From positions 248,001-312,000 of the forward strand of contig NZ_FOQH01000002.1 in NCBI RefSeq assembly GCF_900113695.1: a DNA stretch of 64,000 nucleotides. Reading direction: 5' to 3'. This stretch comes from Albimonas pacifica. Lineage in GTDB: Bacteria; Pseudomonadota; Alphaproteobacteria; Rhodobacterales; Rhodobacteraceae. Every line of letters starts with the position of its first letter. The first letter of the stretch is position 1. Under the pieces are notes generated by a model, which made no database searches, was not told the origin of the DNA, and saw only the letters and a list, made by a program, of their open reading frames with translations. The position numbers and the translations under genes are program-made. This document shows positions 25,235 to 35,185 of this stretch, one piece after another.

Positions 25235-25259
25235 CTGATCCTGCCCCGGTCTGGTGGAC
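25235..25259 (+). repeat. Left terminal inverted repeat of the IS3-family element
   Basis: 25 bases starting CTGATCCTGCCCCGG. They match the reverse complement of 26506-26530 with one mismatch. The element proper probably begins at the TG at 25236, as IS3-family ends are TG...CA. Confidence 0.85.
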
Positions 25260-25298
25260 ACCCGTGCTACGGCTTTCGAGCCAGGAGAGGAGTGTCCG

Positions 25299-25859
25299 AT
25301 GGAGACGAAGACGCGTCGCCATTTTCCGGAGAGCTTCAAGCGGCAGGCCGTCGAGCGTGTGCTCGACAGCGGTCTGCCGATCGTGCGCGTCGCCGAGGAG
25401 TTGGGTCTTCACGAGACGCTGCTGCGGCGCTGGATGAAGCAGCTCTCCGAACCGTCGCCGTCGCGGCAGCCCGCGACGCAGGTCCCGTCTCCGGTGGACC
25501 TCGCCGCGGAGAACGCGCGGCTGAAGTGGGACCTTTCGCGGGCGCAGATGGAGCGCGACATCCTAAAGAAAGCCGCGCTCATCTTCGGAGCGGCCAGCCG
25601 GCGAGGCGCCGGTTCGTCGATGAGCATCGCCGTCTCTGGCCGGTTCGCATGGCCTGCCGCGGTCCCGGCGTATCGCCCGGCGGCTGCTGCGCCTGGCGTC
25701 GGCGGCCGGAGAGCGGGCGCGCCTTCGCGAACTGCGCGCTGTTGGCCGAGATCCCGGCGATCCACGCCGAGAGCGGCGGGGCCTACGGGGCGCCGCGGGT
25801 GCACGCGTATCTGCGCGCCCACGGCGGGCGTGTCGGCCGCCACCGGATCGCGCGGCTGA
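25299..25859 (+). CDS. IS3-family transposase OrfA (helix-turn-helix), stop lost
   Basis: Starts METKTRRHFPESFKRQAVER with the IS3 OrfA helix-turn-helix (IVRVAEELGLHETLLRRWMK) and a leucine-zipper-like segment AAENARLKWDLSRAQMERD, ending the true protein at about ERDILKKAALIFGAASR (near 25599). In intact relatives a stop codon overlapping the OrfB start follows here. In this copy CGATGA-like sequence has become CGGCGA, so translation reads on into about 85 meaningless residues until 25859. OrfA would normally bind the IS ends and pair with OrfB through programmed frameshifting. Confidence 0.8.
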   Translation: METKTRRHFPESFKRQAVERVLDSGLPIVRVAEELGLHETLLRRWMKQLSEPSPSRQPATQVPSPVDLAAENARLKWDLSRAQMERDILKKAALIFGAASRRGAGSSMSIAVSGRFAWPAAVPAYRPAAAAPGVGGRRAGAPSRTARCWPRSRRSTPRAAGPTGRRGCTRICAPTAGVSAATGSRG

Positions 25860-26501
25860 TGCGCCGGGCCGGTCTGCGCGGCCTGGCGGCGATCCCGCGC
25901 CGGCTGCGCACGAAGGACAGCCGGCACGGTCACCCGATCGCACCGAACAGGCTTCGACGGAACTTCACGGCGACGGGGCCGAACCAGGTCCGGCTCGCCG
26001 ACCTGACCTGCGTCCGCACCGGCGAAGGCTGGCGTTCGCGGGGCTTGCGCGGCCCCGCACGGGCCACGGTCCCCGCTCACCTCGGCGTTGATCGACATGC
26101 ATAACCGCAAGGTCGTCGGCTGGGCGGTCCGCGAGACCTTGCACGCCGACATCGCGCTCGAGGCGTGGGAAATGGCCATCAAGCGGCAGCGACCCGCGCC
26201 AAGGCTCGTCCATCACAGCGACAGGGGCGTCCAATGTGCAGCGGATGCCTACCGCCAAGCCCTTGCCGCCGCATGGATCACGCCGTCTATGAGCCGGAAG
26301 GGGAACTGCCTCGACAATGCGCCAATGGAGAGCTTCTTCCACACCCTGAAGGTCGAGCGCGTCCACCACCGCGTCTACGCCACCCGCGGCGAGGCGCGTC
26401 GCGACCTCTTCGCCTACATCGAGGGCTTCTGCAATTCCCGGCGGCTGCATTCCGGGACAGGCTACCGTTCGCCGGCCGACATGGAGCGCATGGCGGCCTG
26501 A
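25600..26501 (+). pseudogene. IS3-family transposase OrfB (DDE integrase core), frame-shifted
   Basis: The first part, in the frame of 25610-26032, reads RFVDEHRRLWPVRMACRGPG through the first catalytic Asp in LADLT and stops making sense after TGEGW. The second part, in another frame from about 26085, resumes at ALIDMHNRKVVGWAVRE with the second Asp in HHSDRGVQ and the Glu in NAPMESFFHTLKVE, ending at 26501. About 40 extra bases separate the two parts. All three DDE residues exist but cannot be made in one protein. The start ATG is also missing, and GYYAW of relatives is GCCAW here. Confidence 0.82.
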
Positions 26502-27048: not shown

Positions 27049-27138
27049 TGGCGGAGAGAGCGGGATTCGAACCCGCGATAGAGTTGCCCCTATACACGCT
27101 TTCCAGGCGTGCGCCTTCGACCACTCGGCCACCTCTCC
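27049..27138 (-). tRNA. tRNA-Ser (anticodon GGA)
   Basis: 90 nt on the minus strand, from GGAGAGGTGGCCGAGTGGTC at 27138 to CCGCCA at 27049. The acceptor stem GGAGAGG pairs with TCTCTCC, the anticodon arm ACGCCTGGAAAGCGT gives GGA, a long variable arm follows as expected for serine, and the T-arm is GCGGGTTCGAATCCCGC. CCA is encoded. The 3' end faces the integrase fragment, so this gene served as the attachment site. Confidence 0.95.
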
Positions 27139-27255: not shown

Positions 27256-27753
27256 TCAGGGCGCGTCGCGGGCCGCCAGGAAGCCGCGCAGGTCCACCAC
27301 GCGCCTGGCGTTCAGCGAGACGTAGACGAAGCCGAGGTTGGTGCGCTCGGCGATCATCTCGCCCGGGTAGGGCAGGTAGCTGAGCTCGCGCGAGCCGAAG
27401 GAGGGGCTGGCGGCGCCCACCTGCCACTCGGTCGTCAGGGTCACGTCGACCAGCTTCAGGGGCGGGCCGCCGGCCTCGTCGGCGATCTCCAGGGGGACGC
27501 CGGCGATGCGAAGGTAGGCGGCCTTGTCGCGGGCCTCGCGGAAGCCGTCGACGAACTGGGCGGTCAGGACCTGCAGCTCGGCCGCGCGGTCGCCCGGGTC
27601 CATGTGGCTGTGCAGGTGGTCGGCGTGGGCGTGGTTGTGGCCGTGACCATGGGGGTGGTCATGCCCGTGGGAATGCCCGTGCCCGTGCCCGAGCCCGTGC
27701 CCATGCCGATGCCCATGTCCGTGCTCATGGTCGTGCATGTGGTCGTGGGGCAT
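27256..27753 (-). CDS. Histidine-rich protein, candidate nickel-handling partner of the ureohydrolase
   Basis: A 165-residue protein. Its first 51 residues contain 23 histidines in HxH repeats with Gly and Asp, a classic Ni/Zn-binding tail like those of nickel metallochaperones. The remaining 110 residues form a small domain with no family I recognise (TAQFVDGFREARDKAAYLRI, then ERTNLGFVYVSLNARRVVDL). The gene starts one base after the ureohydrolase stop (TGA-A-ATG), so the two are tightly coupled. Known guanidine hydrolases need nickel and dedicated chaperones; this protein may store or deliver nickel here (inference). There is no signal peptide, so it is cytoplasmic. It could instead buffer another metal. 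Confidence 0.8.
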   Translation of the reverse strand: MPHDHMHDHEHGHGHRHGHGLGHGHGHSHGHDHPHGHGHNHAHADHLHSHMDPGDRAAELQVLTAQFVDGFREARDKAAYLRIAGVPLEIADEAGGPPLKLVDVTLTTEWQVGAASPSFGSRELSYLPYPGEMIAERTNLGFVYVSLNARRVVDLRGFLAARDAP

Positions 27754-27754
27754 T

Positions 27755-29014
27755 TCAGCGGCTCCCGGCGGGGCGGCCCCAGCGCTTGCCGTGGGTGGCC
27801 TCGGACCACTCGCCCATCGGCAGGCTGACGGGCTTGTCGATGTGCTTCTTGTGGGCGCCCAGCTTGCCGCCCGCGACCAGCGAGCCCAGCACGTCCACGA
27901 TCACCCGCGTGCCCATCAGCGCGGTGATGTCGGAGGTGTCGTAGGGGGGCGAGACCTCGACCAGCTCCATGCCGCAGATGCCTTCGGCGGCGACCTTGGA
28001 GGCCAGGGCGAGGGCCTCGCGCGGCAGGAACCCGCCGGGCTCGGGCCAGCCGGTGCCGGGGACGAAGCCGCAGTCGATGCTGTCGATGTCGAAGGACATG
28101 TAGACCATGTCGACGCCGTCCCAGGCCATCTCCAGCGCCATCTCGGCGGTGCGGTCGACGCCCATCCGCTCCATGTCGGACATGGTGATGATGTTGGTCT
28201 CGCGCTCGCGGGCGACCTTCACCGCCTCGCGCGGGACCTGCCAGCCGCCGATGCCGACCTGGACGAGGTTCTTCGCCGGCACGTTGGGCAGGTTGGTCGA
28301 GTGGAACCAGGGCGTGGTGTGCATCCGCTCGTCCAGGTCCTTCTCCTGGATGTCGGCGTGGCGGTCGAAGTGGACGATGCCGATCTTCTTCGAGGTGCAC
28401 TCGGCGATGCCGCGCACGCAGGGGAAGCCGATGGAGTGGTCGCCGCCGATCATGATCGGCAGAGAGCCGGAGGAGAACACGTGGGAGACGGCGCGGCTGA
28501 TCTGGTCGAAGGATTTCTCGAGGTTGGCCGGGATGGTGAACACGTCGCCCGCGTCGCAGAGCGTCATCTGCTCGCGCAGGTCGATGGCCATCTCGTAGTT
28601 GTAGGGCGTGTAGAGGGCGGAGATTTTTCGAACGCCCTGGGGGCCGAAGCGCGTCCCCGGTCGATACGTCGTGCCGCCGTCGAAGGGGATGCCCAGCACC
28701 GTCGCGTCATAGTTGCCGACTTCGGTCACATCCTCGGTGTAGGGGGCCTTCAGGAAGGTGTTGATGCCGGCGTAGTGGGGCAGCTCGCCGCGGGCGAAGG
28801 TGGGGATCGAGCGGTCCTCGATCGAATCCGCGCCGGTCAGGCCCATGCGCAGGGCCCAGGCCTTCTCCTTCTCCCATTCCGTGCCGGGGATGTCGGCCTC
28901 GGCCCGCATCGCCTTCCAGCCCTGCAGCTTGGAGAGGTCGGGGTGGTGCATCCGGCGACGGTCGGGGAGCAGGGCTGCGGAGATGCGGCGGCGGGGTTCA
29001 GACCTGGGGAACAT
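27755..29014 (-). CDS. Ureohydrolase-family metalloenzyme, candidate guanidine hydrolase
   Basis: A 419-residue arginase/agmatinase-superfamily enzyme, about 100 residues longer than agmatinases because of N- and C-terminal extensions. ATG 29014 has GAGG seven bases upstream; Met22 is a second possible start. Metal ligands are intact: His193 in GGDHS, Asp217/His219/Asp221 in DRHAD, and Asp309/Asp311 in DIDSID. Arg218 replaces the Ala of the usual DAHxD. Other notable stretches are MHTTPWFHSTN (231-241), GGWQVPR and VPGTGWPEPGG. The operon has a guanidine-I riboswitch and an ABC importer, so the probable reaction is guanidine plus water to urea and ammonia, as in the Ni-dependent cyanobacterial guanidine hydrolases (established family; assignment here inferred). 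Agmatinase is the alternative. Confidence 0.85.
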   Translation of the reverse strand: MFPRSEPRRRISAALLPDRRRMHHPDLSKLQGWKAMRAEADIPGTEWEKEKAWALRMGLTGADSIEDRSIPTFARGELPHYAGINTFLKAPYTEDVTEVGNYDATVLGIPFDGGTTYRPGTRFGPQGVRKISALYTPYNYEMAIDLREQMTLCDAGDVFTIPANLEKSFDQISRAVSHVFSSGSLPIMIGGDHSIGFPCVRGIAECTSKKIGIVHFDRHADIQEKDLDERMHTTPWFHSTNLPNVPAKNLVQVGIGGWQVPREAVKVARERETNIITMSDMERMGVDRTAEMALEMAWDGVDMVYMSFDIDSIDCGFVPGTGWPEPGGFLPREALALASKVAAEGICGMELVEVSPPYDTSDITALMGTRVIVDVLGSLVAGGKLGAHKKHIDKPVSLPMGEWSEATHGKRWGRPAGSR

Positions 29015-29804
29015 GGTCGTCCTCTTGGGCTTGCGAGGTCGGGGTCTCGGCGAAAGGGCGGTTCTGGAAGGGGATGCCGCCGTCCCGCGCGTCGAAGTCG
29101 TAGGTGATCGTGGCGCCCCAGGCCTCGGGCTCGATGGGGTCCCAGCGGGGCTTGTCGAAGACCAGGACACGGTCGCCGAGCTTGAAGGCTTCTTCGAGGT
29201 CGTGGCTGACCATGAACACCGTCATGTTGGTCTCGGCGCGCAGGTCCTGGAGGAAGGCGTGCATGGCGAGGCGCGTTCCGGGGTCGAGCGCGCCGAAGGG
29301 CTCGTCCAGCAGCAGCACGCGGGGCCGGCCGGCGAGCGCCTGGGCGATGGCGAGGCGCTGCTGCATGCCGCCGGAGAGCGAGGCGGGGTACTGGTCGGCG
29401 ACATGGGCGAGGCCGATGCGTTCCAGGGCGGCGTCGGCGCGTTTCGCGGCCTCGCGCCGGCGGGCGCCGAAGAAGCGGGGGAGGAGGCCCGCGCGCTCGC
29501 CGCCCAGCTCCTCGGCCGCGATCAGGTTGCCGCGGACCGTCATGTGGGGGAACACCGAGTAGCGCTGGAAGACCACGCCGCGGTCGCGGTCGGGCTCCTG
29601 CGCGGGGGGGCGGCCCTCGATGGAGATCGACCCGCGGGTCGGGCGCTCCTGCGCCAGCAGCAGGCGCAGGAAGGTGGACTTGCCGCAGCCCGAGGCGCCG
29701 ACGATGGAGACGAATTCGCCCTCGGCGACCTCCAGGTTCACGCGCTCCAGGATCGGGCGTTTGCCGTAGGACTGGAAGATGTCGGAGACCGTGACGAAAC
29801 TCAT
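28998..29804 (-). CDS. ABC transporter ATPase, NitT/TauT-type (candidate guanidine importer)
   Basis: A 268-residue nucleotide-binding subunit: Walker A GASGCGKST near residue 36, the signature LSGGMQQRLAIAQALAG, Walker B LLLDEPFGALDPGTR and the switch histidine in SHDLEEAF. It starts inside the permease stop (four-base ATGA overlap), and its last 17 bases overlap the ureohydrolase gene. The C-terminal tail after VLVFDKPRWDPIEP is longer than in SsuB/TauB proteins. It powers uptake of the operon's substrate across the inner membrane. Confidence 0.92.
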   Translation of the reverse strand: MSFVTVSDIFQSYGKRPILERVNLEVAEGEFVSIVGASGCGKSTFLRLLLAQERPTRGSISIEGRPPAQEPDRDRGVVFQRYSVFPHMTVRGNLIAAEELGGERAGLLPRFFGARRREAAKRADAALERIGLAHVADQYPASLSGGMQQRLAIAQALAGRPRVLLLDEPFGALDPGTRLAMHAFLQDLRAETNMTVFMVSHDLEEAFKLGDRVLVFDKPRWDPIEPEAWGATITYDFDARDGGIPFQNRPFAETPTSQAQEDDHVPQV

Positions 29805-30613
29805 GTGGCGGGCCCCGCCCAGGGGAAGGCGCGCCGATGGAGCTGGCGCAGGCCGAGGTCCATCAGGAAGGCGAGCAGGGTGATCCAGATCACGTAGGGG
29901 ATGATCACGTCCATCGCGAAATAGCGGCGCACGAGGAAGATGCGGTAGCCCAGCCCCTCGGTCGAGGCGATGGCCTCGGCGGCGATCAGGAACAGCCAGG
30001 CGGGGCCCAGCGACAGGCGCAGGGCGCCGATCAGGCGGGGCAGGACCTGGGGCAGGGCGACCCGGGTGATTATGGCCCAGGTCGAGGCGCCCAGCGTCTG
30101 GGCCTTCACGATCATCTCCTCGGGGATCTCGGCGGTGCGCTGGGCGATGTCGCGGATCAGCACCGGGGCGATGCCGATGGCGATCAGCGCGACCTTGGAG
30201 ACCTCGCCGAGGCCGAAGACGATGAACAGGATCGGCAGGATCGCCAGCGGCGGGATCAGCGAGATCACCGAGACGAAGGGCGCGAGCGTCGTGCGGATGC
30301 CGGGGATCAGCCCGATCAGCAGGCCGAAGACCAGGCCCATGGACGCCGATATCAAGGCCCCCTCCGCCAGCCGGATCAGGGAGGCGGAGGTGTCGAGCCA
30401 CAGCAGCACGTCGCCCGAGCGGCGGTCGGCCTCGGTCGCGAGGCTGAGCGCGGTGTCGAGGATCTGCGCGGGCGCGGGCAGCAGCTTGTCGGCCGGGTTG
30501 GCGGCGCGGCGCAGGTCGGAGGCGATCACGTAACCCAGCACCGCCAGCGCGAAGGGCAGGGCGGCGAGGCCGAAGGCGACGAGGCGCCCGGGGCGTCGGT
30601 TGATCCAGCGCAT
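29801..30613 (-). CDS. ABC transporter permease, NitT/TauT-type (candidate guanidine importer)
   Basis: A 270-residue membrane protein with six predicted helices and the cytoplasmic loop QTLGASTWAIITRVALPQVL that contacts the ATPase. The start is taken at ATG 30613, seven bases after GGAGG. An ATG six bases earlier (30619) is too close to that site. The gap of about 300 bases to the binding-protein gene upstream is GC-rich, with no other gene. Same family as SsuC/TauC. Confidence 0.9.
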   Translation of the reverse strand: MRWINRRPGRLVAFGLAALPFALAVLGYVIASDLRRAANPADKLLPAPAQILDTALSLATEADRRSGDVLLWLDTSASLIRLAEGALISASMGLVFGLLIGLIPGIRTTLAPFVSVISLIPPLAILPILFIVFGLGEVSKVALIAIGIAPVLIRDIAQRTAEIPEEMIVKAQTLGASTWAIITRVALPQVLPRLIGALRLSLGPAWLFLIAAEAIASTEGLGYRIFLVRRYFAMDVIIPYVIWITLLAFLMDLGLRQLHRRAFPWAGPAT

Positions 30614-30916
30614 GCTCATGCCTCCCCCCGAGGGGACGCGGAGCGGCCGGCGCAAGGCGCCCCATGCGGCGCTCGCGCCTCGCCGCGCAGGGCCGCGCGT
30701 GCGGCAGGCGGCGGGAAGAGGCCCCGGGTCAGGCCCGGGGCGCCCCGGGGCGGGCGTCGTCGCGGCGTCCGCAGGTCGGTCGCCGGCGGGGGCGCCTCGG
30801 CGCAGGGCGCGCGCGTGGCGCCGCGGTTTCCGGAACCGGCTGGCATGGGCCTCTCCCGCTGCGAGGGATCGAGAGGGGGGAGGCCGGGCGCGGCCTCCCC
30901 GTCGTCGCTGGCGTCG

Positions 30917-32017
30917 TCAGAGGAGGCCGTCGGCCGCCATCTTCATGTACTCGACCGAGTAGCGGAACTTCACGTTCCCCTCGTCGCCGGTGACCTGGCC
31001 CGAGGGATAGGCCACGCCGACGAAGTCGGGCGAGGGCGCGCCGGTCCCCAGGATGCCCTTGTCGAACAGGAACTGGGCCACGTAGGTCATGGTCTCGGCG
31101 AGCTTGGGGTCCTCGACGAAGGCCACCGCCTCGGACGGCTCGTAGAACATCGCGGTCGAGTCGAGCTGCGCCTCGTAGCCGGCCTGGTCGGTGCCCGAGG
31201 CCTCGCCCATCGCGGCGCGGGCGGCGGCGCCCTCCTCGGTGTCGGAGGACATCAACGCCATCGTCTCGTACCACGCGCCCACGACCGCCTTGCCGAAGGC
31301 GGGGTTGGCCTCGAGCACTTCGGTGTTCACCGCCAGCAGGTCGATGATCTCGCCGGGGATGTCGGAGCTGTCGGCGACGTTCACCGCGTCGCCCATCTCG
31401 AGGATCGTCGAGACCAGCGGATTCCAGGTCACCACCGCCTCGACGTCCGAGGTCTGCCAGGCGGCGACCATGTCGGCGTCGGAGGTGTTGATCACCGCGC
31501 CCAGGTCCCGCTCGGCCAGCCCCGCCTTCTCCAGCGCGCGGGCGAGCAGGTAGTGGGAGACCGAAAGTTCCACCAGGTTCACCGGCTTGCCGGCGAGGTC
31601 CTCGACCGTGGCGCCCTCGCCCTTCACCAGGATCGCGTCGTTGCCGTTGGAATAGTCGCCCACGATCAGCGCGGTGGTGTCCACGCCGCCGCCCGCGGGG
31701 ATCGAGAGCGTGTCCATGTTGGTGGCCGAGACGCCGTCGAAGGCGCCGGCGGTATATTGGTTGATCGACTCGATGTAGTCGTTGATCTGCACGATCTCGA
31801 CGGTGATGCCGTATTTCTCGGCCCACTTGTCCATGATCCCGTGGTCGGCCATGTAGCCCCACGGCATCCAGCCCACGTAGATCGACCAGGCGATCGAGAA
31901 CTCGGTCTTCGCCTGCGCCAGCGCCGGAGTTCCGGCGGAGAGGGCCAGCACGCCGGCCGCGGCGAGCGCGAGGGCCTTGGATCCCCTGCGCGGGGCGGTC
32001 TTGCGGATAAGGGTCAT
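30917..32017 (-). CDS. ABC transporter substrate-binding protein, NitT/TauT-type (candidate guanidine binding)
   Basis: A 366-residue secreted protein. The signal peptide runs through VLALSAGTPALAQA (about residue 36). The mature part begins KTEFSIAWSIYVGWMPWGYM, then DHGIMDKWAEKYGI, the usual opening of NitT/TauT-type binding proteins, followed by QYTAGAFDGVSATNMDTL at the pocket. Aromatic residues around YVGWMPWGY could cage a small planar cation such as guanidinium by cation-pi contact (inference). AAGGA lies seven bases before the ATG. First gene after the guanidine-I riboswitch, so its translation or transcription is probably switched on by guanidine. Confidence 0.88.
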   Translation of the reverse strand: MTLIRKTAPRRGSKALALAAAGVLALSAGTPALAQAKTEFSIAWSIYVGWMPWGYMADHGIMDKWAEKYGITVEIVQINDYIESINQYTAGAFDGVSATNMDTLSIPAGGGVDTTALIVGDYSNGNDAILVKGEGATVEDLAGKPVNLVELSVSHYLLARALEKAGLAERDLGAVINTSDADMVAAWQTSDVEAVVTWNPLVSTILEMGDAVNVADSSDIPGEIIDLLAVNTEVLEANPAFGKAVVGAWYETMALMSSDTEEGAAARAAMGEASGTDQAGYEAQLDSTAMFYEPSEAVAFVEDPKLAETMTYVAQFLFDKGILGTGAPSPDFVGVAYPSGQVTGDEGNVKFRYSVEYMKMAADGLL

Positions 32018-32104
32018 CTCGGGTCCTTCCGGCGGTCCCGTCCACGGAGGCTGCGGCCCGCCCGCGCGGACGGGACCCAGCGCACGCGTTGCGGACCGTC
32101 GCAG
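32018..32104 (-). promoter_or_regulatory. Possible expression platform of the guanidine-I riboswitch
   Basis: Between aptamer and start codon two arms, GGACGGGACC (plus-strand 32068-32077) and GGTCCCGTCC (32034-32043), can form a 10-bp stem. The RNA copy of one arm (GGGTCCC) can alternatively pair with GGACCC of the ribosome binding site (32021-32026). Such mutually exclusive pairing suggests control by hiding the ribosome binding site. No T-tract terminator is seen. Which state guanidine favours cannot be told from sequence alone. Confidence 0.4.
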
Positions 32105-32232
32105 TGGCCTCCCGGGCTTTTCTCCCGCCGTGTACCCCCGCCGCTGCCGCGGAGGGGCGACGCCTCTCGGACCAGCGCCGCCCCGCTCCCGCCCGGAGGG
32201 GACGGGGAGCGCGGCGGACGGAACCCTAGGCG
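32105..32232 (-). ncRNA. Guanidine-I riboswitch (ykkC class) aptamer
   Basis: On the minus strand the conserved blocks of the guanidine-I motif occur in order: CTAGGGTTC (32229-32221) with CCG, a long GC helix, CTGGTCCGAGAG (block 32173-32164), a second variable helix, then ACGGCGGGAGAAAAGCCCGG with GAG (32134-32109). This matches the ykkC consensus (CUAGGGUUCCG; GGUCCGAGAG; ACGG.GGGA.AAAAGCCCGGGAG) essentially base for base. The class binds free guanidinium and turns on genes for guanidine export or breakdown (established knowledge). Here it precedes an importer-ureohydrolase operon by about 90 bases. Confidence 0.93.
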
Positions 32233-32365
32233 TCCTGCGCAAGGACCAGAATGCAGGCGACGTGCCATGCGGGCAAGGCGAAGGTTTCCCGGTCCTGGGC
32301 GCCTTTGGAACGGGCGCGGCGGCGCCCGGCGCCCGGAAATGCGGCGCCCGGGCGCCCAGGAATGC

Positions 32366-32409
32366 GGCGACGGCGGCCCGGGAGGGCGGCGACGGCGGCC
32401 CGGGAGGGC
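32366..32409. repeat. Two tandem copies of a 22-bp unit
   Basis: GGCGACGGCGGCCCGGGAGG plus GC occurs twice in direct tandem (32366-32387 and 32388-32409), just past the end of the peroxidase gene. A second, looser pair (GCGGCGCCCGG...GGAAAT) precedes it at about 32319-32364. They may act as a transcription end region between the peroxidase gene and the riboswitch. Confidence 0.6.
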
Positions 32410-32419
32410 GGGGCGGCGG

Positions 32420-34177
32420 TCAGAGCAGCTCGGCCGCCTCCAGCAGCGCCTCGAACCCGTCGACGACGCGGCCGCCGGGGCGGACGCCGTCCTCGGGCGA
32501 CCAGGGCAGGCCCTGGCGGCCGCGGCGGCGCCAGATCGAGTCCGGGTCGGTCGCGATCATGCCGATGATCGATTCCGCCAGGATCGCGCTGCCGAGCTGG
32601 CCCAGCCCCCGCCCGTCGCGCTGCACCTCCGCCTCGCGCAGGATGTAAAACCACAGGGGCGTGCGCTCCTCGAACCCGTCGCGGACCGCCTCGCCGGTGT
32701 GGCCCCCCAGCAGCCCCTGGCGCGAGAGCGGGCGCACGAGGTCGACGTAGACCATGTTCAGCTCCGCCGCGCAGGCCTGCGCGGGGGGCAGGTTCAGCGC
32801 GTGGCCCTTGCGCAGCGTCGCCAGCGCCAGGTCGCGGAACAGGGGGGCGTGACGCTCGTCGGGGGCGATGTGGGTGCCGATGGCGCGCGCGCCGCGCGGC
32901 CCGCCGGCGCGCGGCTCGACCGCCAGCCGCGACCAGTTCGCCGTCCGGTCCGCGGGCAGCCGGTCGCCGGCGATCCCCGCGCCGGTCGCGCGCCGCTGCA
33001 GCGCCAGGCCCGCGCGCGGGTGGAAGCGGTTCAGCGGCGCCTCGGCCGGGATCATCGGCAGGCGGAAGCGCGCGGCGGCGGCCCACCACTCCAGCGGCGC
33101 CGGCTGGCGGCGCTGGCCGGGCGCGCGCACGCCGTTGCGCATCTCGACGTAGAAGGGCGCCCCCGCCCGGCGCACCCGCGCCAGCACCGCGGGATCGCAC
33201 AGCCGCGGCAGCCAGCGGTTCAGCGCCAGCCACTGCACGTGGCGGCGCACCTCGCGCCGGGCGGTCTCGAACAGCGCGCCGGGCGCCACGTCGCCGCGGT
33301 CGGCCAGCTCGTCCACCACCCGGTTGTGGAACCGCGCCAGCGCCACCTGCAGCTGGGCCAGCAGCACGTGGCCGTCGTTGCGCAGGTCCCCGGTCAGGGC
33401 GCGCGCCGGATTGACCGCGCCGTCGCGCAGGAAGCTGCGGCGCAGGCGCAGGCGCGGGGGCAGGGCCATGATCTCCGCCTCCGAGATCCCCGTCTCCGCG
33501 TCGCCGCCGAGCGCGAGCCCCAGCCGGGGCAGGTCCGCCCCGCGGTCGGCGGGCCTCGCCACCCGCCCCCGCCCGGAGGGCGCCGGGGCCACGAGGCGCA
33601 GCCGCGCCTCCGCCCCCGGCTCGCGCATCAGGCGGGCGATGCGCCCGGCGAGCGGCCCCTCGGCCGCGTCGACGCCGTAGAGGCTCTCGAGGTCCAGCGT
33701 TCCGTCGCGCAGGTTGACCAGCGAGCGTTCGACCTCCGCCCGCGCGCGCGGGCGCACGGGCGCGGATTCGGGAGAGCGCCCGGAGGTGGTGCGCAGGTCG
33801 CTCGCCGCCGTCAGGTCGTGCTCGAGGAACTGGCCGAACAGCGGCACGATCAGCGGCAGGTCCGAGGCCGCCCGGCGGGGGTCGCACTCGTCCTCCGACA
33901 TCGCCTGGGCGAGCGCGGCCAGGCGCGCCTCGGCGTCGGGATCGTCGGGCGCGTCCTCGGCCCAGCGGAACAGGTAGCCGAAGGAGGCGCCCGGCGCCTC
34001 GCGCGCGCGGCGCGCCGTGCGCCGCACGTCCTGGGCGGCGGCCATGCGCCCGTCGGGCCCGTCGTCGAATGCGGCCTCGGCCGGCGCGGCGGCGCCGGAT
34101 CCCGAAGCGCCGGCGGCGCCCCCGCCGTGCGCCGACAGGGGGTCTGCGCCGCGTCCGCGGCCCATGGAGTAGATCAC
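32420..34177 (-). CDS. Animal-type heme peroxidase (peroxinectin/myeloperoxidase superfamily)
   Basis: A 585-residue bacterial member of the animal heme peroxidase family. The distal-histidine motif appears as PLFGQFLEHDLTAA, the Arg-containing helix as GDLRNDGHVLLAQLQVALAR followed by FHNRVVD, and the proximal-histidine region as VRRHVQWLALNRWLPRLCDP. The start is probably GTG 34177, seven bases after GGAAGGG; ATG 34165 is the alternative. No signal peptide is evident and the N-terminus is Gly/Ala-rich. It would use H2O2 to oxidise halides or organic substrates. It is transcribed alone and is not obviously linked to the guanidine operon behind it. Confidence 0.85.
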   Translation of the reverse strand: MIYSMGRGRGADPLSAHGGGAAGASGSGAAAPAEAAFDDGPDGRMAAAQDVRRTARRAREAPGASFGYLFRWAEDAPDDPDAEARLAALAQAMSEDECDPRRAASDLPLIVPLFGQFLEHDLTAASDLRTTSGRSPESAPVRPRARAEVERSLVNLRDGTLDLESLYGVDAAEGPLAGRIARLMREPGAEARLRLVAPAPSGRGRVARPADRGADLPRLGLALGGDAETGISEAEIMALPPRLRLRRSFLRDGAVNPARALTGDLRNDGHVLLAQLQVALARFHNRVVDELADRGDVAPGALFETARREVRRHVQWLALNRWLPRLCDPAVLARVRRAGAPFYVEMRNGVRAPGQRRQPAPLEWWAAAARFRLPMIPAEAPLNRFHPRAGLALQRRATGAGIAGDRLPADRTANWSRLAVEPRAGGPRGARAIGTHIAPDERHAPLFRDLALATLRKGHALNLPPAQACAAELNMVYVDLVRPLSRQGLLGGHTGEAVRDGFEERTPLWFYILREAEVQRDGRGLGQLGSAILAESIIGMIATDPDSIWRRRGRQGLPWSPEDGVRPGGRVVDGFEALLEAAELL

Positions 34178-34459
34178 GTCGTCACCCTTCCCGCGCCCGC
34201 CGGGCCGCGTCCCCGGGGCGGGGCGCGGCCCCGCGCTCCCTCGCGCGGCCCGTTCGCTCTGAAATCGTGAACAGGTCCTTAACGGAGCGAGCGCGAATTC
34301 AACGTGAATCGCTCCCGACGATTCGCGGCCAAGTGGGTCCAACCTTTCCGGGATCGACGATTCACGAACGCTTCGCGCCGTAGGCCCGAGCCTTTCCCCT
34401 GCGGGCGATCGGGGCTCGCGCAGCGGCCAAGGCCGCGCAGAACAAGGGAAATTCACGAC

Positions 34460-34966
34460 ATGACCAACGCCGTCGACACGATCCGCGTTCCCGGCCAGTT
34501 CGCCGCCGTCGCCTCCCTCGCCGCGCTTGCGCGCAAGCCCTCCCGGCTCGCGCCCGCGCCGGTCGCGCCCGACCACATGTTCACCATCGCCCCCGACTCG
34601 ATGGAGGCGTTCGGGGGCCTGGTGAAGACCTGGGCGAAGTCGCCCGAGACGGCGCCGGTGGGCCGGCACTCGGTCGAGAGCTTCGCCGCGATCCTCGACG
34701 CCCACGGCATCGACTACACCCTGCCGACCCGCGCCGGCTGCGCGCTGCGCGAGGTCAACGTCTCGCTGGCCGAGGCCGGGGTGCTGGAGCTGCGGGTGCC
34801 CGCCAAGGCGATGATCGAGGCCTCCGAGCGGATGCTGGCCGAGAGCGAGTACCCCCTGCCGTCCTACTGCGCGGACGTGTTCCCCGGCGCCGCGCCCGAG
34901 ATCGACGACAACCTCGAGCTGCACCGCAAGCGCGTCGCCGACTACTGCATCCTGAACTGCGCCTGA
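34460..34966 (+). CDS. Hypothetical protein, 168 residues
   Basis: Starts MTNAVDTIRVPGQFAAVASL, with AAGGGA before the ATG. There is no signal peptide, membrane helix or known motif. It has a helical first part, an ordered middle (DAHGIDYTLPTRAGCALREV) and a cysteine-bearing tail (LPSYCADVF, then YCILNCA at the very end). The 280-bp region upstream is less GC-rich than average and likely carries its promoter. It is transcribed divergently from the peroxidase gene, and greA follows 220 bp downstream. Codon usage is normal for the window, which supports it being a real gene. Function unknown. Confidence 0.65.
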   Translation: MTNAVDTIRVPGQFAAVASLAALARKPSRLAPAPVAPDHMFTIAPDSMEAFGGLVKTWAKSPETAPVGRHSVESFAAILDAHGIDYTLPTRAGCALREVNVSLAEAGVLELRVPAKAMIEASERMLAESEYPLPSYCADVFPGAAPEIDDNLELHRKRVADYCILNCA

Positions 34967-35185
34967 GGGGCGCGCGCGACCCCGCCGGACCCGGCGCCGC
35001 CGCGTCGGGTCCCGGCCGCCGCGCACGGCATCTTGAAACCCCTGCCGCCCGCCCATAGTCTTCCCTCACAGCAGCCGCGCCGCGCACAGGCGCGGCTGCG
35101 TCGCGTTTCAGGGGCGGCGGGACACTCTTCCCCCGGCGCCCGGAACGCAGCTCTGCAAGTCCCGACCCGGAGGAGGGCGAGGCAT

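Follow-up and report, generated by a model that had tools for sequence, protein, structure and literature searches.

How might nickel reach a guanidine-degrading enzyme whose operon carries one gene of an unnamed family where hypA and hypB might be expected? The question arises from an operon in Albimonas pacifica (assembly GCF_900113695.1, contig NZ_FOQH01000002.1), found within a 64,000-nucleotide (nt) stretch of DNA that we call the window and whose own numbering we use. All parts of the operon lie on the minus strand. From 5' to 3', they are a guanidine-I riboswitch aptamer, followed by genes for the binding protein, permease, and ATPase of an ATP-binding cassette (ABC) importer, a ureohydrolase, and a histidine-rich protein, here called the partner. 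A sequence-only reading of the window had proposed such a riboswitch and five-gene operon, and every part is present where that reading had placed it.

We favor, with moderate confidence, the interpretation that this is a guanidine uptake and hydrolysis operon in which the partner most likely supplies Ni(II) to the ureohydrolase, an enzyme of the GdmH type. The evidence comes from the identity of the enzyme, the distribution and anatomy of the partner, the riboswitch, and the importer. Papers are cited by PubMed Central (PMC) identifier, each for the portions of its text available to us.

The enzyme is a GdmH-type guanidinase

On sequence evidence, the ureohydrolase is a guanidinase of the GdmH type. 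The closest solved structures are those of the Synechocystis enzyme (7esr and 7oi1, 559 bits) and the Nitrospira inopinata enzyme (9fek, 543 bits); the next solved relative, proclavaminate amidinohydrolase, scores 174 bits. Over the aligned segments, 234/356 residues (66%) are identical with Synechocystis GdmH and 225/357 (63%) with the Nitrospira guanidinase. Residues important for guanidine hydrolysis are Thr97, His214, Trp305, and Glu336 (Synechocystis numbering), in addition to the metal ligands (PMC11410670). The window enzyme keeps 10 of 10 functional positions, comprising six metal ligands and four specificity residues, the latter including Thr116 and Trp323. Across the 97 loci examined, the guanidine-specificity Thr and Trp are both present in 94. 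In a maximum-likelihood tree of 32 rows, which has long outgroup branches and no characterized agmatinase among its rows, the window enzyme belongs to a clade of 20 alphaproteobacterial sequences (support 100/99) that joins both characterized guanidinases, 7esr and 9fek, at 99/96. Seven outgroup ureohydrolases, namely the solved GbuA, GpuA, and PAH and four paralogues from the enzyme's own genome, separate at 100/99. The NCBIfam agmatinase model TIGR01230 stays under its cut-off for the enzyme (166.5 vs 174.3 bits). Bit scores, kept residues, and tree together lead us to reject an agmatinase, and they uphold the guanidine hydrolase of the sequence-only reading.

The guanidinase of Synechocystis is nickel-dependent (PMC12186494, PMC11410670), and nickel probably occupies the site of the window enzyme. 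All 16 GdmH genomes tested, that of the window included, encode the urease subunit UreC; thus, the urea that the enzyme would release can be used.

The alphaproteobacterial enzymes also share a C-terminal feature. Specifically, a tail of the IDKP type is found in 113 of 117 loci, a count in which some genomes were fetched twice. A partner is visible in 112 of these 113, and the remaining locus, L077, ends with its contig. The tail is absent from L019, L020, and L048, which are full length and partnerless, and from L047, which is cut before the tail. We take the tail as a weak hint of a possible docking site for the partner. As a separate observation, L048:7983-9428 and L047:2528-3310 encode divergent GdmH-like enzymes with a His-rich loop inside the catalytic domain (approximately HESV...H.HMHD), possibly a built-in metal tract. 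In L048, Thr replaces the guanidinase Trp, and no partner is present.

The partner gene accompanies the guanidinase gene

In the sampled Alphaproteobacteria, partner and enzyme are closely paired. We examined samples of the window's order, class, and phylum, which overlap. Of the 176 genomes in the order sample, 22 have partner and enzyme genes side by side (<400 nt between aligned ends) and 154 have neither gene; three genera (g2, g4, and g285) include genomes of both kinds. The class sample of 385 genomes yielded 13 enzyme matches at E 1e-80 or better. Eleven are close orthologues, and all 11 have the partner. The other two are divergent: L048 is partnerless, and a contig end hides the downstream side of L047. 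The class sample also holds two partner remnants without a GdmH match, L044 and L039, the latter with in-frame stops. Finally, seven of the 398 genomes in the phylum sample match the enzyme at E 1e-90 or better. Each belongs to the window's class, and the same seven have the partner, for which there is one additional marginal match, at E 0.004.

A further set, the named loci, consists of the best 80 of 489 relatives and leans to close kin. Its members are labeled as Rhodobacteraceae-type genera or as Alphaproteobacteria, the nearest being Albimonas donghaensis. The partner lies downstream of gdmH in 79 of the 80, and the contig of the exception ends at the last codons of the enzyme gene. The partner of locus L045 was missed with the window core as sole query and was found in another search.

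The L044 remnant has an arrangement of its own. At L044:8019-9035, a full-length riboswitch and the first ~150 binding-protein codons lead directly into the partner core; searches of this locus detected neither the permease and ATPase genes nor that of the guanidinase. The His tract of the L044 partner is at the C terminus, unlike the N-terminal tract elsewhere.

The partner represents an unnamed family

Judged by its sequence, the partner belongs to an unnamed family with no credible match in Pfam, NCBIfam, or the PDB. The whole window protein matches no Pfam or NCBIfam family, and 14 diverse partner cores, compared with the same collections at E up to 1, gave only single-member matches at E 0.07-0.19, none of them to HypA. 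The PDB yielded no match for the window core and one match, at E 1.2, for a partner profile. Searches of Pfam, NCBIfam, and the PDB revealed no match to any urease accessory family, UreE included.

Structure prediction divides the protein into two parts. The N-terminal ~50 residues are predicted to be disordered, with predicted local distance difference test (pLDDT) values <50 at residues 1-8 and 10-48. The core, predicted alone, folds into two helices, an antiparallel sheet, and a final helix (mean pLDDT 85.0; predicted template modeling score, pTM, 0.73). Against solved folds, the best Foldseek E-values are 0.30 for the whole partner and 0.44 for the core. The VIA fold search gave a best Z of 2.9 for the whole protein and 3.4 for the core, the latter a COMMD-like match over 47 residues at 4.5 A, tied with tudor and eIF5A rows. 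Neither UreE nor HypA is among the Foldseek or VIA matches, an absence that excludes neither.

The two parts differ in how they vary. In 77 of the named loci (the 79 minus two with doubtful starts), the whole partner contains 7-28 His residues, with a median of 16. Tract length and His count vary among relatives, and the tract is lost in the L043 lineage, which keeps the core. L043 also keeps the Pro-His-Asp (PHD) start, and that His is the only one in the whole protein. No Cys whatsoever occurs in 73 of the 77 members, so no CXXC zinc motif is possible in them.

The extreme N terminus varies less than the tract. As first called, 75 of the 79 named loci begin with Met-Pro-His-Asp (MPHD), and one more (L051) does so from an internal start; the others are one Met-Ala-His-Asp, one Met-Pro-Pro-Asp, and one that is unclear. 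We considered whether PHD might simply reflect overlap between the partner start and the stop codon of gdmH. Among 30 loci in which the partner start does not overlap gdmH, 28 keep PHD, and overlap is therefore not its cause. Divergent lineages begin with Met-His-Asp (L037, L143, and L045), Met-His-Gly (L021), or Met-His-Arg (L142). Initiator Met is removed before Pro or Ala and kept before His. If this rule holds for the partner, most mature partners would have His at position 2 and mostly Asp at position 3.

A guanidine-I riboswitch precedes the operon

We identify positions 32107-32240 as a guanidine-I aptamer from its alignment with the Rfam model RF00442. The match, at 32240-32107, spans model positions 1-107 of 107 with 53.8 bits and an E-value of 1.1e-8, with a bias term of 21.7 for this G+C-rich element. 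The conserved blocks CUAGGGUUCCG, CUGGUCCGAGAG, and ACACGG...AAAA..CCCGGGAG appear in order within the full-length alignment. The Rfam gathering score is 63 bits, which the element does not reach, and a default Rfam run is silent here because of that shortfall. A search of the 6.0 Mb genome with RF00442 found no comparable second element; the runner-up has 16.3 bits and E 4.7. Elements from 10 relatives exceed the Rfam cut-off (77.0-87.6 bits), and a model built from their alignment with the window left out, R1, matches the window at identical coordinates with 56.1 bits and E 2e-9. Thus, on the Rfam threshold, which the sequence-only reading had itself chosen as a check, the element falls short, and the riboswitch claim of that reading stands on the E-value, genome uniqueness, and the relatives' model, which outweigh the score. 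With an E-value of order 1e-8, nothing comparable in the genome, and conservation in relatives, we reject a chance match and regard the aptamer as real despite the cut-off.

Of the 80 named loci, 76 contain the riboswitch according to model R1, among them L053, which is cut by a contig end; the model scores L038 more weakly, at 41.7 bits. Among the four without a match, L096 and L097 lie on contigs that start within the operon or shortly ahead of it. The other two, L080 and L120, encode an importer that has diverged, with 44-45% identity in the binding protein. In these two, and in L037 and L045, operon and upstream sequence are present with no recognizable riboswitch element. In the window, the plain leader fold is no better than shuffles (z -0.30), and a search of 31950-32450 gave no terminator-like site. 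The start codon of the binding protein is closely preceded by a strong hairpin.

The importer probably carries guanidine

The binding protein matches TIGR03427 with 514.8 bits against a curated cut-off of 333.9, the query having been read 4 residues longer. This model is named for a putative urea transporter, and its short name points to urea carboxylase regions. The enzymes of such regions are now read as guanidine carboxylases. In bacteria with the carboxylase pathway, ABC importers take up guanidine (PMC12186494). From the riboswitch, and from the operon and its enzyme, we infer that guanidine is the ligand of the importer. The likely guanidine importer of the sequence-only reading thus gains support from the TIGR03427 class, the riboswitch, and the operon context.

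Nickel machinery in partner-bearing genomes

Nickel chaperones activate both GdmH and the related metformin hydrolases (PMC11399263). We therefore asked what the Hyp genes look like in 16 partner-bearing GdmH genomes, a survey that stands outside the 80 named loci. HypA is present in six of the 16 (one a partial match) and HypB over the cut-off in five. HypA was not found in 10, HypB over the cut-off not in 11, and neither of them in 10. All HypA and over-cut-off HypB matches are on contigs other than that of gdmH. The idea, put forward in the sequence-only reading, of a metal-handling candidate other than HypA/HypB is supported by the His-rich partner and by the lack of either Hyp gene on the gdmH contigs of these genomes. 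In L037 (G096:C17), the guanidine operon shares its contig with a urease alpha gene and a UreG-like gene, which stand upstream of it at no more than a few kb, and with an Rfam 5' ureB small RNA match of 104.7 bits.

Proposed mechanism and rival explanations

The notion is that guanidinium binds the guanidine-I aptamer of the leader and so would turn the operon on. The ABC importer would then bring guanidine into the cell, the di-metal ureohydrolase GdmH would convert it to urea and ammonia, and urease, encoded elsewhere in the genome, would handle the urea. The product of the last gene, dedicated to the enzyme, would supply Ni(II) to GdmH, the job of HypA and HypB in cyanobacteria. In the mature protein, Pro-His-Asp or Met-His-Asp would hold Ni(II) through the free amine, His2, and the acidic residue 3, in the manner of HypA Met-His-Glu. 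The disordered His tract may gather or store metal, and the conserved core may dock on GdmH, perhaps on the IDKP tail. Parts of this proposal have precedents: the HypA Met-His-Glu motif binds Ni via the N-terminal amine, His2, and Glu3, of which His2 is critical, and the His tail of Klebsiella aerogenes UreE is dispensable for nickel delivery (PMC7055735). On the proposed model, the variable tract of the partner would be dispensable too. We put forward more tentatively, at somewhat less than an even chance, the specific proposal that the partner is a single-protein, enzyme-dedicated Ni(II) chaperone, with no solved fold match found, in which the HypA-like clamp of amine, His2, and acidic residue 3 has been re-invented and which replaces HypA-HypB for the guanidine hydrolase in Alphaproteobacteria.

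Several observations weigh against nickel delivery by the partner. All 16 surveyed genomes hold a UreG-like GTPase (sub-cut-off HypB matches, 64-85 bits), machinery that could load GdmH. The UreG-like gene is within ~3 kb of UreC in 15 of them, and the sub-cut-off matches near UreC are probably UreG. Three weak HypB-model matches (21-34 bits) do occur on gdmH contigs (genomes G148, G000, and G532). For the Nitrospira guanidinase, an active enzyme that contains one Ni and one Mn, no chaperone is known (PMC11410670). Outside Pseudomonadota, where GdmH was sampled from plasmid records only, two Rubrobacter plasmid GdmH loci showed no partner nearby. Together, the Nitrospira enzyme and the partnerless Rubrobacter GdmH indicate that a chaperone is not always needed. 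The Fisher values for the pairing, while tiny, ignore kinship; in the tree, the enzymes that have a partner fall into a single clade, and the IDKP tail and the partner thus share one origin. On the protein itself, the core has no conserved His or Cys, and the mature N terminus depends on the general rule for Met removal. L046 (Met-His-Ser) and L038 (Met-His-Ala) have their His only from the second of two possible starts, and the divergent L040 and L144, as well as L054 and L078, have no clear X-His-Asp start.

Other roles for the partner would account for parts of this picture. The close pairing with gdmH, together with a core that is conserved, is predicted with confidence, and lacks metal ligands, would also suit a structural or regulatory subunit that stabilizes or gates the guanidinase hexamer, the His tract being merely a local metal buffer. 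The related metformin hydrolase does require two different subunits (PMC11399263). However, the guanidinase of N. inopinata forms a homohexamer and has been likened to that of Synechocystis (PMC11410670), and a subunit role alone leaves unexplained why the X-His-Asp start is kept where the His tract is lost; we consider such a role unlikely. The presence of UreC and a UreG-like GTPase match in 16 of 16 GdmH genomes, and of urease genes within a few kb of the operon in G096, invites the idea that the partner, rather than being a chaperone in its own right, acts as an adaptor through which UreG and other parts of the urease nickel machinery load GdmH. Yet the partner shows no sequence match to urease accessory families, and none appears among its fold matches, although the latter exclude nothing. 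Moreover, GdmH produced in Escherichia coli with nickel chaperones is highly active (PMC11410670). We judge the adaptor to be distinctly improbable.

A His-rich tract with 7-28 His (median 16, 77 named loci) also recalls general metal-storage or detoxification proteins of the Hpn kind, which could have entered the operon by chance. However, the partner was not found without gdmH in the 176 genomes of the order, and in the two gdmH-less cases among the 385 of the class only remnants are left: L039 has stops, and L044 adjoins an importer gene that is truncated. Further, some members have lost the His tract and retained the core. We disfavor this role and give it very little weight. The data show the pairing of partner and enzyme, and nickel supply to GdmH is the role that we consider most likely.

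The locus and its surroundings

The features of the operon are collected in Table 1. The enzyme row gives the whole open reading frame (ORF), and the true start of the guanidinase may be the ATG at 28951. The genes are tightly packed: permease and ATPase share an ATGA overlap, ATPase and enzyme genes overlap by 17 nt, and the enzyme and His-rich genes are 1 nt apart. The gap between binding-protein and permease genes (30620-30916) is 297 nt long and corresponds to ~77 nt between aligned ends in the Albimonas locus L049. It opens with a strong G+C hairpin, and the fold of the whole gap is not unusual (z -0.97).

Table 1. Features of the guanidine operon in window coordinates (aa, amino acids)
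Feature	Position	Strand	Evidence
Guanidine-I (ykkC) riboswitch aptamer, long P1a hairpin	32107..32240	-	cmscan with RF00442 and relatives-only model R1
ABC importer periplasmic substrate-binding protein, 366 aa; ligand probably guanidine	30917..32017	-	TIGR03427; ligand inferred from riboswitch and operon
ABC importer permease, 272 aa	29801..30619	-	PF00528
ABC importer ATPase, 268 aa	28998..29804	-	PF00005
GdmH-type guanidinase, 419 aa as ORF	27755..29014	-	PF00491, PDB matches, kept residues, tree
Guanidinase C-terminal tail HKKHIDKPV, common to the clade; possible docking peptide	27827..27853	-	Sequence comparison
GdmH partner (His-rich protein), 165 aa: PHD motif, His tract, conserved core; proposed Ni chaperone	27256..27753	-	
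Partner N-terminal Met-Pro-His-Asp motif	27742..27753	-	MPHD in 75/79 named loci as first called
Partner His-rich tract, predicted disordered	27601..27741	-	pLDDT <50; length and His number vary among relatives
Partner conserved folded core, 114 aa	27256..27600	-	pLDDT and pTM; no convincing PDB match by Foldseek

Directly downstream of the operon is a tRNA-Ser(GGA) gene (27049-27138, minus strand). A tRNA-Ser(GGA) is likewise found at L049:7861-7950, in Albimonas, and at L044:9582-9671, the broken operon of another genus. Among the 58 loci of relatives that were scanned, only these two have it; the tRNA gene is possibly a shared insertion site. Pieces of an IS3-like transposase (HTH_Tnp_1, HTH_21, and rve), in differing frames, occupy 25254-26501 on the plus strand, ~0.5 kb past the tRNA-Ser. 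Upstream of the operon, an ORF at 32420-35056 (minus strand) has a partial animal haem peroxidase match (PF03098, E 8.5e-10).

Relation to known systems

The sequence-only reading had regarded the union of riboswitch, importer, and hydrolase in one transcript as a distinct design. Such a union has already been described. In Synechocystis, one operon combines a riboswitch, two Ni accessory genes, the guanidinase, and an ABC importer (PMC12186494), and riboswitch-controlled analogues of sll1077 are often beside hypA, hypB, SsuA_fam, TM_PBP2, and ABC_NrtD genes (PMC8390497). The overall design is therefore not new. What remains distinct is more limited: a single gene, from an unnamed family, occupies the place of the two Hyp genes and accompanies this enzyme clade in the sampled Alphaproteobacteria. 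Full-text literature searches and the available text of five guanidine papers contain no mention of the partner, which is not enough to call it unpublished.

The Nitrospira guanidinase is only partly nickel-loaded, by a route that was called unclear (PMC11410670). Given that the partner accompanies one guanidinase clade, and was not found intact away from it in the sampled genomes, the question of loading can be put to the test in E. coli with just two genes. Should the partner prove to be a chaperone, the known metallochaperones would be joined by a family whose operon encodes no GTPase, guanidine use in many Rhodobacteraceae would be explained, and active guanidine-degrading enzymes could be made by co-expression with it.

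Among known systems, the gdmH (sll1077) operon of Synechocystis sp. PCC 6803 resembles that of the window in its guanidine-I riboswitch, its guanidinase, and its SsuA/NrtD-type ABC importer (sll1080-sll1082 there). In contrast, the window operon lacks hypA/hypB, has an unnamed-family gene after the enzyme, and places the importer genes first. The Nitrospira inopinata operon shares the guanidine-I riboswitch and the same kind of guanidinase. It has an APC permease rather than an ABC importer and no known nickel chaperone, and the solved chain of its guanidinase, unlike the enzymes of the window clade, ends without an IDKP tail. The MefH/DmgH (metformin/dimethylguanidine hydrolase) operons likewise join a Ni ureohydrolase with dedicated nickel helpers (PMC11399263); there, however, two ureohydrolase subunits and HypA/HypB are present, and the enzyme is distant from that of the window (134 vs 559 bits).

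The partner itself invites comparison with two nickel-delivery systems. Like the partner gene, the HypA/HypB genes can adjoin that of a Ni ureohydrolase, and HypA Met-His-Glu resembles the X-His-Asp predicted for the mature partner. Unlike these proteins, the partner has no Hyp family match, no possible CXXC in 73 of 77 members, and no GTPase match in its core. UreE, similarly, is a small protein with a variable His-rich tail and a conserved core, and in K. aerogenes that tail is not needed for delivery. The partner differs from UreE in that it has no sequence match to it and carries its His tract at the N terminus, except in the L044 remnant.

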